Assembly: GCF_900182655.1 (NCBI RefSeq)
Contig: NZ_FXTC01000012.1
Coordinates: 62,001-126,000, forward strand
Direction of reading: 5' to 3'
Source of the DNA: Chryseobacterium rhizoplanae
Lineage (GTDB): Bacteria > Bacteroidota > Bacteroidia > Flavobacteriales > Weeksellaceae
Length of the DNA stretch: 64,000 nt
Positions within the stretch are counted from its first letter, which is position 1; each line of letters starts with the position of its first letter. Positions 22,925-28,616 of this stretch are shown here, one piece after another. The notes under the pieces were generated by a model that did no database searches, had not been told where the DNA came from, and worked only from the letters and a program-made list of their open reading frames with translations. The position numbers and the translations under genes were made by a program.

Positions 22925-24436
22925 TTATTTTACATCCTGCATTAATTTTTTCACGTACGGAGATATCAAAATTAATACCACTCCGGCAATTACCGCGTAT
23001 AATCCCAATTGTTTATATCCATCAGTATAAGTGATCAATTCATCATAGTTGGTAGAACCTTCTTTTGCCGTAGCAAGACTGGCTCCGATAATCCCTGCAA
23101 CATATTGTCCATAAGCAGAAGCAAGGAACCACATTCCCATCATCATCCCCTGAAGATTCTTGGTAGAAAGCTTTGTCATAATAGACAATCCGATAGGAGA
23201 GAGGCATAATTCCCCAAGGGTAATGATTAATAATGCCAGGGTAAAGAAGTTCAATGAAGTAATTCCCTGAAGGTCTGCAAATAGCCGGGTAGCAAACAGA
23301 ACATAATATCCTAATCCCAGGAAAATAAATCCTAATCCGAATTTAATAATGGTATTAGGTTCAATTTTTCTCTTATTAAGCCAGATCCAAAGAAGCCCGA
23401 TCAATGGTGCAAGGAAAATAATGAAGAAAGCTCCTCCTGAATTATTCACACCATTCGGGTCTAATCCAAAAAGATCTTTGTTCAGGTTTTTAGCGGCAAA
23501 AATGCTTAAAGAACCTCCGCTTTGTTCGTAAATTCCCCAGAATATGATGGAGAAAATAATGAAAACCAAAGCTGCCCAAAGCTTTTTGCGTTCTGAAGCA
23601 GTTACTTTAGACATTTCATAGAATAAATAGATTAAGGTTAATGGCCCGATGGTCCACATGAAATAATCCGTATATTCTGTTTTAGCAACCATTGTCATAA
23701 TGATAGGTACAAAAATCAATGACAAGACATATACTCCATATTCTTTCCATTTTGGAATTGGAGCTGCCTTTGTCTCTGCTAAAGGATGTCCGGGTTGTAA
23801 ACCAATAGTACCTAATGTTCTTTGCGTAAATACAAAGTTAATCAAGCTGATCACCATTACTATTGCAGCTAATCCGAAAGCAATATGCCATCTCATTTCT
23901 TCTGCAATAACATTACTTAGGAATTCTCCTTTACCAATAGCAATACACAAATAACCACCTAACAATGCTCCAAGATTAATTCCCGCATAGAAAAGCGAAA
24001 AACCTGCATCAGCTCTTGAATCATTAGGTTTATAAAGTTGTCCCACCATGGATGAAATATTAGGTTTAAAGAAACCTGTCCCTACTACGGTGAATGCTAT
24101 TCCGAGGAAAAAGAATTTATGGGGATCTGTAGCAAGAATTAAACTTCCTACAATCATCAGGAGACCTCCCCAGAACAGGGATTTTCTGAATCCTAAAATT
24201 TTATCGGCAAAAAGACCACCTACAAAAGTAAAGGCATATACGAAAGCCTGGGTGGCACCATATTGAAGGTTGGCTTCCTTTTCATGGAAATTAAGCTGTG
24301 AGATCATAAAGAAGACCAGCATTCCACGCATTCCGTAGAAACAGAAACGTTCCCACATTTCAGAGAAAAAAAGGCTCCAGATCTGTCTGGGATATTTTCC
24401 TTTGAAATCTTGTATTTCATCTAAAGTTAAGCTCAT
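22925..24436 (-). CDS. POT-family proton-coupled peptide transporter (copy 1)
   Basis: The 503-residue protein has about 12-14 membrane segments. The POT signature is present at the N-terminus as IWSLFFSEMWERFCFYGMRG (ExxERFxYYG type), followed by GGLFADKILGFRKSLFWGG and GTGFFKPNISSMVGQLY. The family imports di- and tripeptides with protons across the inner membrane. Two further copies lie at 25046 and 26932 on the same strand. A broken DUF1016 gene lies between this copy and the next. A later POT segment, TLGELCLSPIGLSIMTKLS, is also clear. Confidence 0.93.
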   Translation of the reverse strand: MSLTLDEIQDFKGKYPRQIWSLFFSEMWERFCFYGMRGMLVFFMISQLNFHEKEANLQYGATQAFVYAFTFVGGLFADKILGFRKSLFWGGLLMIVGSLILATDPHKFFFLGIAFTVVGTGFFKPNISSMVGQLYKPNDSRADAGFSLFYAGINLGALLGGYLCIAIGKGEFLSNVIAEEMRWHIAFGLAAIVMVISLINFVFTQRTLGTIGLQPGHPLAETKAAPIPKWKEYGVYVLSLIFVPIIMTMVAKTEYTDYFMWTIGPLTLIYLFYEMSKVTASERKKLWAALVFIIFSIIFWGIYEQSGGSLSIFAAKNLNKDLFGLDPNGVNNSGGAFFIIFLAPLIGLLWIWLNKRKIEPNTIIKFGLGFIFLGLGYYVLFATRLFADLQGITSLNFFTLALLIITLGELCLSPIGLSIMTKLSTKNLQGMMMGMWFLASAYGQYVAGIIGASLATAKEGSTNYDELITYTDGYKQLGLYAVIAGVVLILISPYVKKLMQDVK

Positions 24437-24459: not shown

Positions 24460-24567
24460 TTAAGGGTTTTTATCTTTCTGATCCAGTTCAAAACGGATTC
24501 TGTCCTGGTCAATAATTTGTTTTAATTCTTCTTCTTTGGGGAGGTACAGCAGGTATTTGCTAGCGAA
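24460..24567 (-). pseudogene. Out-of-frame C-terminal remnant of a DUF1016 (YhcG-like) gene
   Basis: Read one frame away from the upstream DUF1016 fragment, this stretch encodes 35 residues then a stop: FASKYLLYLPKEEELKQII and the rest of a charged tail. From memory, FASKY.LYLP.EEEL is the C-terminal end of YhcG-type PDDEXK nucleases. It directly follows the N-terminal fragment, so the middle of the gene, including the nuclease core, has been deleted and the frame shifted. Confidence 0.75.
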
Positions 24568-24983
24568 TTGATTTGTCTTTTGAGATCCCTGTAGTTCCAG
24601 TTATTTTGAACAGATTCGTTGATATAATAATTCATTTTATCACTATTGTCCAGCTTTATCAAGAGTCTGTAGTGGGTCCAGCTCAATTGTTGACGCAATG
24701 CGTCAACAATTGGAAACACTTTGTAAAACTTTCGCATATTGGATAAGTTGGTATAATCAAATCCTTTTCCAAATTCTAAGGTAAGCTTCTGAGAAAGTTT
24801 TTTCAGTGTATATTTTCCGTATTCTGCACGTTCCTTTCCCTGTTGCTCATCTTCCACAATAAGTTTTCCGATTTGCCAGTAGGTAAGCAATAAAGTAGAA
24901 TTCGCTATCCGAAAAACCTTTTCGCGCGACTGTCTAATGATTTCCTTTACGGATTGGAATAAAGAATCTTCGGAAATTTCCAT
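24522..24983 (-). CDS. Truncated DUF1016 (YhcG-like) N-terminal domain protein
   Basis: The open frame encodes 153 residues matching the DUF1016 N-terminal domain: TYWQIGKLIVEDEQQGKERA, YGKYTLKKLSQKL, GFDYTNLSNMRKFY, LSWTHYRLLIKL and MNYYINESVQNNWNYRDLKR. Intact relatives have about 340-370 residues with a C-terminal PDDEXK nuclease domain. Here homology stops at QIN and the last residues (SLANTCCTSPKKKN) are frameshifted sequence. The correct C-terminal end of the family is found in another frame immediately downstream. The gene is therefore a decayed remnant. It could still be translated, but without a nuclease. It contains a 29-base palindrome. Confidence 0.8.
   Translation of the reverse strand: MEISEDSLFQSVKEIIRQSREKVFRIANSTLLLTYWQIGKLIVEDEQQGKERAEYGKYTLKKLSQKLTLEFGKGFDYTNLSNMRKFYKVFPIVDALRQQLSWTHYRLLIKLDNSDKMNYYINESVQNNWNYRDLKRQINSLANTCCTSPKKKN
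24684..24712. repeat. 29-base palindrome inside the DUF1016 fragment
   Basis: Perfect 14-base arms (caattgttgacgca and tgcgtcaacaattg) are separated by one A. The palindrome is inside coding sequence (residues IVDALRQQL) and would form a strong hairpin in RNA or a cruciform in DNA. Confidence 0.85.
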
Positions 24984-25045: not shown

Positions 25046-26800
25046 TTAGTTTACACCGTGCATCATTTTCTTTAAGATAGGTGAAATTAAACCTAAGATT
25101 ACAGAAGCAATACCACAAAGTACTACGAATACCATGAAGAATTCAAATAGATTGTGAATTTCAAATCCTACAAAAGTAGGGTTATGTAATGGAAGCTGAG
25201 CTTTATCAAAAGCAGCTACCTGATCTGCAGTTAAAGTTACTTTTTTATCTAATACATCCTGTAGATTAACGCCCAGTTCTTCAGCTTTCTTAAATTTATC
25301 ACCTGTTGCAGGGATAAGCGCTCCTAATGAACCTGCCAATGCATAACCGGCAGCGTTAGAAATGAAGAATACACCATATAATAATGAAGCGAATCTTTTT
25401 GGAGCCAGTTTACCTACTAATGATAAACCAATTGGAGAAAGACAAAGCTCACCACAAGTCTGGATGAAGTATAAAAGCATTAACCATTTGATTGCCAATA
25501 ATCCTGAGTTTCCAAGATCTTTTACATTGTGGGCAATGATGAAATAAGAAAGAGCAATTAATGCCAATCCCATAGCTTGTTTGAATGGAGATACCGGCTC
25601 TTTTCCTTTTGCTCTTAGTTTATCCCAACACAAACTGAAAGGAACAGCCAAAAGAACTACGAAAATTCCATTGAAAATCTGAACCATTGAAGGAGGCATA
25701 TTCCATCCGAAAATGTTTCTGTCCGTTTGGTTATCCGCGATAAATGTTAATGAAGATCCTGCCTGTTCAAAAGCTGCCCAGAAAAAGATGATGAAGAATG
25801 AAACGATATAGATTACCCAGATTCTTTGTCTCTCAACTTTGTTTTCTGCAGAAGACATAATCAGGAAGGCAAGAGAAATCCCTGCCGCGTAGATGAAAGG
25901 ATAAATAATTCCTTTGATCAGCTGTCCCATTTCTACTGAGTTGAATCCAAACTCCCCTACAAGAAGGTATCTGAAAGCAAAGAATAAAATAACAAATATT
26001 CCGCCTGTGATTCCTAGAGCCTGCCCTGAGAATTTAGCAGTCTGTGTTTCTCCTTCCTCGAAATCGGCACTTGTATTGTTTTTTGGCAATCCTCCGATAG
26101 GTCTTCCTTCCGGAGTTACTACATATTTGTTTTTAAGAATAAAGAATGTTATTGTTCCGATTACCATCGCAATAGAAGCAGCTAAGAATCCCCATTTGAA
26201 AGCGAAGATATCTCTTACTCCGGTCGCAGCATCTTTTACATCTCCTACGTATGGACAGATAAACTGACCTAAGAATGCTCCGATGTTGATCCCCATATAG
26301 AAAATGGTAAAAGCTGAATCCAGTTTAGATTTTTCCTGTTTTGGATAAAGACTCCCTACCATTGAGGAAATATTCGGTTTAAAGAATCCATTACCGAAAA
26401 TGATAACGAATAATGCCAGCCACATAATCAGTTTAGCACTTCCGATGTCTGCTGAAAAAGTTGAAGCACTGATAAATAATAAGAACTGGCCAATAGCCAT
26501 TAACGATCCACCAATGATGATCGCGAATCTGTTTCCAATATACTTATCAGCAATAAATCCTCCCAAAAGAGGTGTTAAATAACATAACGCTAGAAATCCA
26601 CCATAGATGATCGCCGCATCAGCTTCTTTTATTAATAAGGAATTTACCATGAAGAGCGTCAAAAGTGCTCTCATCCCATAAAAGTTGAAACGCTCCCACA
26701 TTTCTGTTCCGAAAAGAACCCATAATCCTTTAGGATGCCTGGAATTCTTATTCTCTACAAATTCATCCGGTTTCGGGCTCAGTGCTTCAATATTATCCAT
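25046..26800 (-). CDS. POT-family proton-coupled peptide transporter (copy 2)
   Basis: The 584-residue transporter carries the POT signature LWVLFGTEMWERFNFYGMRA near residue 28, then GGFIADKYIGNRFAIIIGG, GNGFFKPNISSMVGSLY and a late TCGELCLSPIGLSLVGKLAP. It is longer than copy 1, mainly because of a longer N-terminus and a loop near residues 470-540 (GDKFKKAEELGVNLQDVLD). Expected function is di- and tripeptide uptake. It has its own complete promoter (26829-26858) and its own terminator, so the three POT genes are separately expressed rather than one operon. Confidence 0.93.
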   Translation of the reverse strand: MDNIEALSPKPDEFVENKNSRHPKGLWVLFGTEMWERFNFYGMRALLTLFMVNSLLIKEADAAIIYGGFLALCYLTPLLGGFIADKYIGNRFAIIIGGSLMAIGQFLLFISASTFSADIGSAKLIMWLALFVIIFGNGFFKPNISSMVGSLYPKQEKSKLDSAFTIFYMGINIGAFLGQFICPYVGDVKDAATGVRDIFAFKWGFLAASIAMVIGTITFFILKNKYVVTPEGRPIGGLPKNNTSADFEEGETQTAKFSGQALGITGGIFVILFFAFRYLLVGEFGFNSVEMGQLIKGIIYPFIYAAGISLAFLIMSSAENKVERQRIWVIYIVSFFIIFFWAAFEQAGSSLTFIADNQTDRNIFGWNMPPSMVQIFNGIFVVLLAVPFSLCWDKLRAKGKEPVSPFKQAMGLALIALSYFIIAHNVKDLGNSGLLAIKWLMLLYFIQTCGELCLSPIGLSLVGKLAPKRFASLLYGVFFISNAAGYALAGSLGALIPATGDKFKKAEELGVNLQDVLDKKVTLTADQVAAFDKAQLPLHNPTFVGFEIHNLFEFFMVFVVLCGIASVILGLISPILKKMMHGVN

Positions 26801-26931: not shown

Positions 26932-28587
26932 TTAATGTCCTTTTTCCTTCATAATTTTATTCAGTCTTTTTAACATAGAAAGACCTAAAAGTGTAGCAAA
27001 TATTAACAAACCGAAGTTAACAAGGAAATAATTCGTTTTGTTTTCGTAATTATACCACGTACTCGCCAGGATTCCGGAAAGCTTATTTCCCACAGAGTTG
27101 GCAAGGAAGAATCCTCCCATCATCAATGCGGTAATCCTTGCAGGAGAAAGTTTTGAAACGAATGAAAGTCCCATTGGAGACAAACATAATTCTCCGATGG
27201 TAATTACCCCGTAGCTGGCAACAAGCCATAAAGGAGATACTTTTACAGCTCCATTATCTCCGGCCATTACTGCTAAAACCATTACCAGACAGGAAAGTCC
27301 GGAAATAAATAACCCTAAAACAATCTTGGTAGGAGTTAGAGGTTCTTTTCCTTTTCTTCTCAACAATGCCCAGAACCCGACAATCACTGGTGTCAGTGCA
27401 ATAACCCAGAACGGATTGATAGACTGGAATAATTCTGTATTGTACAGATAAACTTTATTTTCAGGGTTTTTCTCAAGGGTAGCACGCTGTTCAGGAGATA
27501 TATTTTTAAAATAAACATCTTTGCCCATTTCTTTCTTCGTCTCTCCTTTGTCATCTTTTTGAGATCGGAACTGATTATCATAAACGGGTACTTCTTTGTT
27601 TTCATAGCTCTTACCTTCCACCATATAAATACCTTCCAATGGTTTTTCAAGAGAAGCAGGAACACTTCTGTCCGTATAATAATTTGCCCATCTCGTTAAA
27701 GCTGTACCATTCTGTTTGAAAACAGCCCAGAAGAACATACTGATCAGGAATACAGAAAGTAATGCTCCGATAGAAGCTTTTTCGTCAGGTTTGGCTTTAA
27801 AGTAAAGAGATGCGTAAAAGTAGATTACAGGTATACAAGCAAAAATAAAGGCATCTGTACTGTCACTTCCAAAAATATTGTTAGGAACAAACCAGCCTAT
27901 TACTCCAGCAATAATGGCAGGAACAAAAACTTTAAGCATAATTTCCGAAAGCTTGGTATCTCCTTCCTGTACAGGTTTCATCTGTGCAGCATGGATATAA
28001 TGCTTTCTTCCGATGGTAAAAATCACCATACCGATAAGCATTCCCACTCCGGCAGTGATGAAAGCCTCACCCCAGCCAAATTTATTACGCATAAATGCTG
28101 CAATAATGTTACAGATAAATGCTCCGATATTGATTCCCATATAGAAAATATTATATCCGGAGTCTTTATTCGCTTTATAAGGTTCTTCAGAATAAAGGTT
28201 TCCTAATAATGTTGAGATCGTCGGCTTAAAGAAACCGTTTCCTATGATAATTAATGCCAGTGAAGCATAAAACAGAGGTAAATCTTTAAATACTCCCATT
28301 CCTATATATCCGGCAGCCATTAAAAAACCTCCCAGGTAGATAGATTTAATATATCCTAAAACTCTGTCTGCCAGGAATCCACCAATGAAGGGCGTCAGAT
28401 AAGTTAAGGCAATATAAGTTCCGAAAATGTCATCAGCAGTTTTATCCGGAAGTCCAAGTCCGCCTTTCATACCCGTAGGCTCAATAACATACAGAACAAA
28501 GATTCCAAGAATCAGGTAATACCCGAAACGCTCCCACATCTCAGTGAAAAAGAGGAAGGGCAGCCCTTTAGGATGTTTAGTCTTCAT
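26932..28587 (-). CDS. POT-family proton-coupled peptide transporter (copy 3)
   Basis: The 551-residue protein has the signature LPFLFFTEMWERFGYYLILG at its N-terminus, GGFLADRVLGYIKSIYLGG, GNGFFKPTISTLLGNLY and a late TIGELCLSPMGLSFVSKLSP. A hydrophilic loop near residues 305-375 (YTDRSVPASLEKPLEG) sets it apart from the other two. The ATG at 28587 gives MKTKHPKGLPF, as in copy 2 (RHPKGLW). A longer frame to a TTG at 28611 is rejected because a promoter-like element overlaps it. Predicted role: peptide uptake. The three copies are divergent enough to be old paralogues. Confidence 0.93.
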   Translation of the reverse strand: MKTKHPKGLPFLFFTEMWERFGYYLILGIFVLYVIEPTGMKGGLGLPDKTADDIFGTYIALTYLTPFIGGFLADRVLGYIKSIYLGGFLMAAGYIGMGVFKDLPLFYASLALIIIGNGFFKPTISTLLGNLYSEEPYKANKDSGYNIFYMGINIGAFICNIIAAFMRNKFGWGEAFITAGVGMLIGMVIFTIGRKHYIHAAQMKPVQEGDTKLSEIMLKVFVPAIIAGVIGWFVPNNIFGSDSTDAFIFACIPVIYFYASLYFKAKPDEKASIGALLSVFLISMFFWAVFKQNGTALTRWANYYTDRSVPASLEKPLEGIYMVEGKSYENKEVPVYDNQFRSQKDDKGETKKEMGKDVYFKNISPEQRATLEKNPENKVYLYNTELFQSINPFWVIALTPVIVGFWALLRRKGKEPLTPTKIVLGLFISGLSCLVMVLAVMAGDNGAVKVSPLWLVASYGVITIGELCLSPMGLSFVSKLSPARITALMMGGFFLANSVGNKLSGILASTWYNYENKTNYFLVNFGLLIFATLLGLSMLKRLNKIMKEKGH

Positions 28588-28608
28588 ATATTCAATTTTC
28601 AAATTTCC

Positions 28609-28616
28609 CAAAAATA
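28609..28616 (-). promoter_or_regulatory. Candidate -7 element TATTTTTG for POT copy 3
   Basis: TATTTTTG on the minus strand lies 21 bases upstream of the ATG at 28587 and fits TAnnTTTG. No -33 TTG is evident. It supports the ATG over the upstream TTG. Confidence 0.4.

Follow-up and report, generated by a model that had tools for sequence, protein, structure and literature searches.

The window gene is a nuclease-less remnant of DUF1016/YhcG

What is left of a DUF1016/YhcG gene in Chryseobacterium rhizoplanae, and why what is left should hold a perfect palindrome within its coding sequence, is the question raised by the locus described here. The window is the whole stretch of DNA that was analysed, 64,000 nucleotides of contig NZ_FXTC01000012.1 (Table 1). 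A sequence-only reading had described at this place a DUF1016 gene disrupted by the loss of an internal segment together with a frameshift. In support of this, a full-size allele without lesions was found in 53 of 135 Chryseobacterium species between the ORFs that flank the window gene, which encode putative POT transporters. The remaining 153-aa protein matched the Pfam DUF1016_N profile at 151 bits (cut-off, 32.8) over residues 12 to 140. When an intact homologue was used as the tblastn query, its residues 1 to 151 were found in the window ORF and its residues 291 to 329 were matched at 24579-24463 in another frame with 95% identity, confirming the C-terminal end of the family that had been described there. 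The nuclease core between them is deleted. The YhcG_C nuclease domain (PF06250) is absent from the window gene, and the sole PF06250 match in the genome is in another gene, on contig C1.

The size of the loss had been overestimated at 180 to 200 residues; compared with the closest intact allele, the window copy is short of about 466 bp (about 155 residues). Deletion through microhomology had also been suggested. The bases ttcgct(agc) at 24567-24559 do fit either side of the joint in the window, but the nearest intact relative does not bear the suggestion out, since the two deletion ends are only partly alike there and no exact microhomology was scored. The N-terminal domain is a clear member of the DUF1016/YhcG family (COG4804, PF17761 plus PF06250), intact alleles of the locus are full length, and the window copy differs from the family in having no nuclease core. 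What remains is thus a DUF1016/YhcG gene without its nuclease. As a broken gene it is ordinary, and its interest comes from the palindrome.

Table 1. Positions of the features of the DUF1016/YhcG locus in the window
Feature	Position	Strand	Remarks
Remaining ORF, 153 aa	24522..24983	-	DUF1016_N domain, then a few out-of-frame residues past the joint
Predicted recognition helix, codons 77-89	24717..24755	-	Codons counted from the ORF start; helix taken from the model of homologue L035
Palindrome in the coding sequence, 29 bp	24684..24712	.	Perfect; 14-nt arms, 100% complementary, 1 nt apart
Deletion joint, ttcgctagc	24559..24567	-	Nuclease core gone here
C-terminal DUF1016 remnant	24460..24579	-	Other frame, with its own stop codon; tblastn
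POT-type transporter ORF, downstream	22925..24436	-	Right flank in the locus survey
POT-type transporter ORF, upstream	25046..26800	-	Left flank in the locus survey
Further POT-type ORF	26932-28611		Near the DUF1016 remnant

Intact, eroded and empty alleles in Chryseobacterium

The locus was surveyed in 148 genomes of the genus, which were searched with the two flanking transporter genes and not with DUF1016, so that the survey was independent of which part of DUF1016 survives. The downstream flank was matched in 147 genomes, 12 of which had no paired upstream-flank match on one contig and were excluded; G034 had neither flank. The 135 species counted, with both flanks on one contig and in one orientation, comprised 56 full-size loci (53 intact and clean, 3 with a point lesion, either a frameshift or a stop), 34 eroded loci of 245 to 796 bp, 42 empty gaps of 79 to 159 bp without DUF1016 similarity and 3 larger gaps that held other DNA with no DUF1016 match. 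Tblastn matches to DUF1016 were obtained for 33 of the eroded loci; the other, G088, gave none and was classed as eroded from the DNA alignment alone. Intact, eroded and empty states were interspersed on the tree of the upstream flank, a tree with one very long branch (G095) and with 48 of its 132 inner branches starred.

The 34 eroded loci fell into 21 distinct main joints, the largest groups holding 7 and 4 species, and the window joint formed a cluster of its own. On whether relatives carry the same short protein as a conserved gene, the survey gave a mixed answer: the window joint recurs in no other eroded allele, but short alleles with the N-terminal codons and without the nuclease core are common, including the groups of seven and four species. 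In the seven-species group (G016, G036, G044, G066, G069, G089 and G144), both ends of the joint lie within 12 nt and the species are interspersed with intact relatives; this joint may have spread by recombination or arisen recurrently. Deletions beginning exactly at the palindrome were considered and are not general, as the left end is in most cases tens of bases away on its 3' side.

An account in which the window gene is an ordinary dead pseudogene, produced when a single random deletion struck a dispensable gene and happened to spare the palindrome, has about an even chance of being correct and is compatible with the interpretation preferred below. The frameshifted C terminus, the private joint and the frequent erosion at the locus all favour it, and some eroded alleles have stops in the N-terminal part (G091 and G095) or high dN/dS values, each against the nearest intact allele, in G007 (1.11) and G122 (0.93). 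The placement of the deletions is not random, however: the left end was 3' of the palindrome in 18 of the 21 distinct joints, where uniform placement with the same lengths expects 7.3 (p = 5e-6, taking the joints as independent and ignoring second deletions). Low N-terminal dN/dS values, computed without codons 76 to 101, likewise argue against simple death in two sets with a common joint, namely, 0.15 in four species with a common 437-bp deletion, compared with 0.08 for seven intact sisters, and 0.05 for three of the species in the group of seven. For the window allele itself the value was 0.03 against the nearest intact allele, which mostly reflects the time before the deletion. Judged by eye, the palindrome stretch is kept in 27 of the 34 eroded alleles, in several of them in decayed or damaged form; it was lost by second deletions in G007, G010, G081 and G122. 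The window gene on its own is likely, though not proven, to be a plain pseudogene.

Most homologues examined have a palindrome inside the coding sequence

In the window the palindrome, which the sequence-only reading had passed over, falls in the codons for IVDALRQQL, directly ahead of LSW. Its core, TGACGCAnTGCGTCA, was found at a single place in the window genome with up to 1 mismatch allowed, and among the 148 genomes of the genus the exact 15-mer core occurs once per genome in the 61 that have it. This one copy per genome rules out a dispersed element of the REP kind. Intact alleles of the locus keep the symmetry with different bases, as in TTGACGC/GCGTCAA and GTGACGC/GCGTCAC.

Homologues from other genera showed the same arrangement. 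Usable ORFs, a few of which are truncated, were obtained from 13 such homologues, and in all 13 the best palindrome of the gene fell in this segment. The paralogues L001 and L004 of the window genome, for which no ORF was obtained in this comparison, are outside this count and have palindromes of their own, as have the viral homologues L251 to L253. Escherichia coli K-12 yhcG carries three tandem palindromes at the corresponding place, and the single alleles inspected from O157 and O102 carry one and two, respectively. Among the 28 ORFs obtained from L263 to L291 (L277 gave none), a palindrome scoring at least 7 was seen by eye in or next to the segment in 24; in L263, L265, L276 and L291, none scoring 7 or more was seen in or near it. 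In L286, the segment scored 4 and a palindrome with 14-bp arms lies just upstream.

In 91 non-redundant homologues (less than 75% identity outside the segment), the segment had a mean palindrome score of 10.2, whereas its synonymous-codon shuffles averaged 4.6 and the best-scoring palindrome outside it in the same gene averaged 7.3. With 60 shuffles each, which sets a floor of 0.016 on p, the segment was more palindromic than its shuffles (p < 0.05) in 80 of the 91 and missed this level in 11; it beat the rest of the gene in 66 and equalled or beat it in 75. The two arms also change together. Among 27 homologues below 75% identity, positions 7-23, 8-22 and 9-21 matched in 23, 25 and 23 cases, against shuffle maxima of 18, 16 and 15, and all four pair types occur. 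Some of the statistics include homologues from which the idea arose. Most homologues examined therefore carry a perfect or near-perfect coding palindrome a few codons past a helix-turn-helix-like segment, and its sequence varies widely among members with the symmetry kept.

A second copy of the core, scoring at least 8, was present inside the gene in 18 of 78 genes. Similar copies within 600 bp upstream were found for 2 of the 78 and downstream for 1, compared with 1 and 0 for a reversed-core control, and the palindrome was rejected as a general promoter operator on the basis of the upstream counts.

A palindrome acting in RNA, as a conserved hairpin of the DUF1016 mRNA that serves processing or translational control and has nothing to do with DNA recognition, would likewise keep its symmetry while its sequence diverged. 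On the sense strand, G-T mismatches did exceed A-C mismatches (15 versus 9 in 83 non-redundant palindromes and 51 versus 37 in 78 related 29-mers), as a paired stem would lead one to expect, but the excess is small, and 34 of the 51 are at one position (T6-G24). No Rfam family matched at the gathering threshold between 22500 and 27500 of the window. An RNA hairpin predicts neither the coupling to protein residues nor the palindromes at gene-less loci that are described in the following sections, and we regard it as improbable.

The half-site covaries with residues of the upstream helix

Among homologues of the main length class (66, or 62 after a gap filter), bases 7 to 9 of the half-site covary with helix residues 77/78, 81 and 85. 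TTG occurs mostly with YT..S/T..K and GTG mostly with ES..R..S, GGT goes with ER..N..A/S, and CGA or CGT goes with xR..E..Q; helix types vary at GGA sites, and ES..R..S was also seen with GCG and ATG. With Y77, T78, S81 and K85, the window protein has the TTG-associated type. When columns were ranked, with palindrome-coded residues 90 to 99 set aside, residues 81 and 78 had the two highest z values among 291 variable columns (n = 27), and the top four columns at n = 62 were 78, 81, 77 and 85. The helix residues led the columns down to 75% identity, and residues 88 and 89, which are nearer the palindrome, were weaker. Below 65% identity (n = 19), 78 alone of the four residues stood out, with z values of 1.3, 1.1 and 0.1 for 81, 77 and 85. 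Pairs with at least 80% identity in the remaining sequence were also compared. All four helix residues agreed in 97% of 3661 pairs with the same half-site and in 9% of 4453 pairs with differing half-sites, while agreement in neighbouring stretches held at 75 to 80%.

At the Chryseobacterium locus, where nearly all alleles are of two types, the helix type was concordant with the half-site in 75 of 75 TTG or GTG alleles, with helix classes set after the data had been seen and with 3 of 78 alleles excluded for having other half-sites; the species tree required 23 half-site changes. Helix and half-site switched together in every one of the 12 independent pairs that lie on supported branches (p = 0.0005). 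The control residue 88 followed the half-site in 5.8 of the 12 pairs and never opposed it (median p = 0.03), which indicates that some linkage exists. Exchange of a short block carrying both helix and palindrome could mimic coevolution within the genus. Block exchange is probably not the whole cause, given that further types occur outside the genus and that residue 88 is coupled less strongly.

Mutation without function was considered as a source of the symmetry. Template switching corrects imperfect inverted repeats and gives paired changes in both arms without selection, so that the paired arm changes in themselves would be expected. This process leaves unexplained both the coupling to the helix and why distant bacteria and viral contigs have the palindrome at the same codons, and it is a very improbable explanation of the whole.

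A possible ParB/Noc-like fold of the N-terminal domain

The intact homologue L035 was modelled with AlphaFold2 from 49 sequences (pLDDT, 80.0; pTM, 0.45). Helices of the model include 56-71, 77-89 and 102-108, the second of which would hold the covarying residues. Residues about 27 to 148 of the model aligned to Noc, ParB and Spo0J chains, DNA complexes among them, with Z scores of 6.9 to 8.4, in a range where values below 8, or below about 13 for helical folds, may reflect just a common arrangement. Foldseek gave ParB/Noc-type matches probabilities of 0.97 to 0.99 at E values of 0.06 to 0.07, and the Pfam HTH_ParB profile scored 18.9 bits against the window protein, under its cut-off of 22.6. 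By model comparison, the nuclease domain of L035 resembles EndoMS/NucS (Z about 12). No solved structure matched L035 by sequence. In the portions of the literature consulted, the recognition helix alpha-4 of ParB enters the major groove of the palindromic parS, and the specificity residues are in that region (PMC7383237). The YhcG nuclease domain was placed nearest to YraN-like Holliday-junction resolvases, with a helical N-terminal domain of no known fold (Kosinski et al. 2005, PMC1189080). Judged from the L035 model, the window ORF appears to end close to the end of this predicted binding domain.

Taking the covariation and the model together, we consider that the DUF1016 N-terminal domain probably binds the palindrome in its own gene as a ParB/Noc-like dimer and that such binding may serve self-tethering or self-control. 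Self-recognition is the part to which we commit; the use is a guess. The protein would consist of a ParB/Noc-like DNA-binding domain with a PD-(D/E)XK nuclease attached, and a dimer of the domain would occupy the palindrome within its own coding sequence. Sitting on its own gene, the protein might limit expression or hold the nuclease there. Core deletions such as the one in the window would then remove the nuclease and leave the binding domain and its site.

The palindrome is often present where the gene is absent

A putative palindrome relic was present in 16 of the 42 empty Chryseobacterium gaps (within 4 mismatches of 17; p ≤ 0.010 against mononucleotide shuffles, with relic types picked from the alleles seen), and 3 further candidates with p values of 0.030 to 0.035 are probably due to chance. 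The exact 15-mer was present in six empty gaps (G058, G073, G123, G129, G130 and G131). In E. coli, two loci without yhcG (L363 and L364) were examined, and each has a gltD-nanQ gap of 67 bp that consists largely of AATTCGCCAGACAGTGTCTGGCGAATT, which is identical to the first palindrome of the yhcG alleles in L255, L258, L259 and L262; the first palindrome of K-12 differs slightly. In the record of E. coli HH97 (L365), part of the N-terminal region runs up to the palindrome and is followed there by an empty-type flank. A locus that lacks the gene thus often has a related palindrome. An extra palindrome just 3' of the gene was present in 5 of 5 yhcG-bearing E. coli loci examined.

These loci bear on the main functional rival, which shares the binding claim with the preferred interpretation and differs on the use of binding. 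DUF1016 may be a homing-like selfish gene whose nuclease cuts the palindrome in gene-less or damaged alleles, with repair from an intact allele restoring the gene and with deletion alleles as by-products. Several observations fit such a gene: its scattered presence at one fixed place, where closely related species have intact, eroded or empty alleles; the single copy of the exact core in each genome that has it; the gene-less sites with a palindrome in both Chryseobacterium and E. coli; and the joining of the HH97 fragment to an empty-type flank at the palindrome. The 5' part of the HH97 record, however, looks heavily altered, ordinary recombination in the flanks could also spread presence and absence, and intact genes hold an uninterrupted site, unlike classical homing genes. 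Judged from these sequence comparisons, homing is unlikely, if less so than an RNA hairpin.

Several further palindromes were noted. The empty site of G058 (L243) has perfect arms of 26 bp, exceeding any coding copy among the 91 homologues listed. At gltD-nanQ in L255, L256 and L262, truncated yhcG breaks inside the third palindrome, near transposase genes; the matches to K-12 yhcG stop at its base 406 or begin at its base 385. Palindromes with the core TTGACGCAnTGCGTCAA occur without DUF1016 similarity in L366 (1167), L367 (1209), L368 (1278) and L369 (125), some with longer symmetric arms. Off-locus exact matches in G053, G060, G011 and G116 had no DUF1016 similarity in the surrounding 2.4 to 2.5 kb by tblastn with one query.

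Relation to known systems

DUF1016 was found in many bacteria and in viral contigs, with yhcG as the K-12 copy; a scan of viral contigs with K-12 YhcG as the query gave no match. The portions of the literature searched state no established function for DUF1016, and no description of a coding palindrome in the family, or of its link to a helix, was found there, mostly in papers available without subscription. PADLOC, which models known and candidate phage-defence genes, covers this family with its PDC-S02 profiles, a name that presumably stands for "phage defence candidate," and one of them matched the intact homologue L035 (E = 2.4e-136). Of the 25 PADLOC rows listed for L035, PDC-S02 models of 107 to 175 positions account for 11, with two on the C-terminal part, and such short models would fit the frequent shortened alleles.

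DUF1016 may resemble ParB/Noc with parS/NBS in the predicted fold of residues about 27 to 148, it likewise has a palindromic site, and the coupled residues fall in the helix-turn-helix region, where the literature consulted places the specificity residues of ParB/Noc (PMC7383237). Unlike ParB/Noc, DUF1016 has an attached PD-(D/E)XK nuclease, and in most members examined its site lies within the gene and changes in sequence among members. A parS site of Bacillus subtilis lies in spo0J. Homing endonuclease genes are likewise patchy at a fixed site, and gene-less alleles of DUF1016 often carry the site, but the intact DUF1016 gene contains its site without interrupting it; clean full-size alleles have the in-gene palindrome, with the exception of G035, where no strong one was found. 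REP and Rickettsia palindromic elements are also short palindromes, and those of Rickettsia lie inside coding sequences; unlike REP, the DUF1016 palindrome is tied to one gene family, with a single-copy core in the genomes searched.

If these genes do carry their own binding site, sequenced DUF1016 members would reveal their own DNA target, with specificity readable from sequence, and they would provide a natural record of how a protein helix and its DNA target evolve together within one gene. A wider and more doubtful extension is that DUF1016/YhcG genes might be self-addressed elements, each a ParB/Noc-like reader plus nuclease with a matching palindromic address in its own frame. Reader and address would change together, tandem modules would come and go, a bare address could be recognised again, and gene, nuclease-less binder and bare site would be stages of one cycle. 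We put this forward tentatively, as less likely than not.

Other DUF1016 copies in the same genome

Two more places with a DUF1016_N domain were found in the window genome, on contigs C1 and C17. The C1 paralogue is intact (324 aa; L001, 1474-2448, minus strand) and holds nearly the same palindrome core at two places, near aa 89 and near aa 150; judged by eye, its neighbours look like a conjugation-type region. The C17 paralogue (L004, ORF 1459-1779) is a short ORF of 106 aa that consists of the N-terminal part with its own palindrome. It breaks a few bases past the palindrome, and a stretch in another frame resembles, by eye, a C-terminal remnant.
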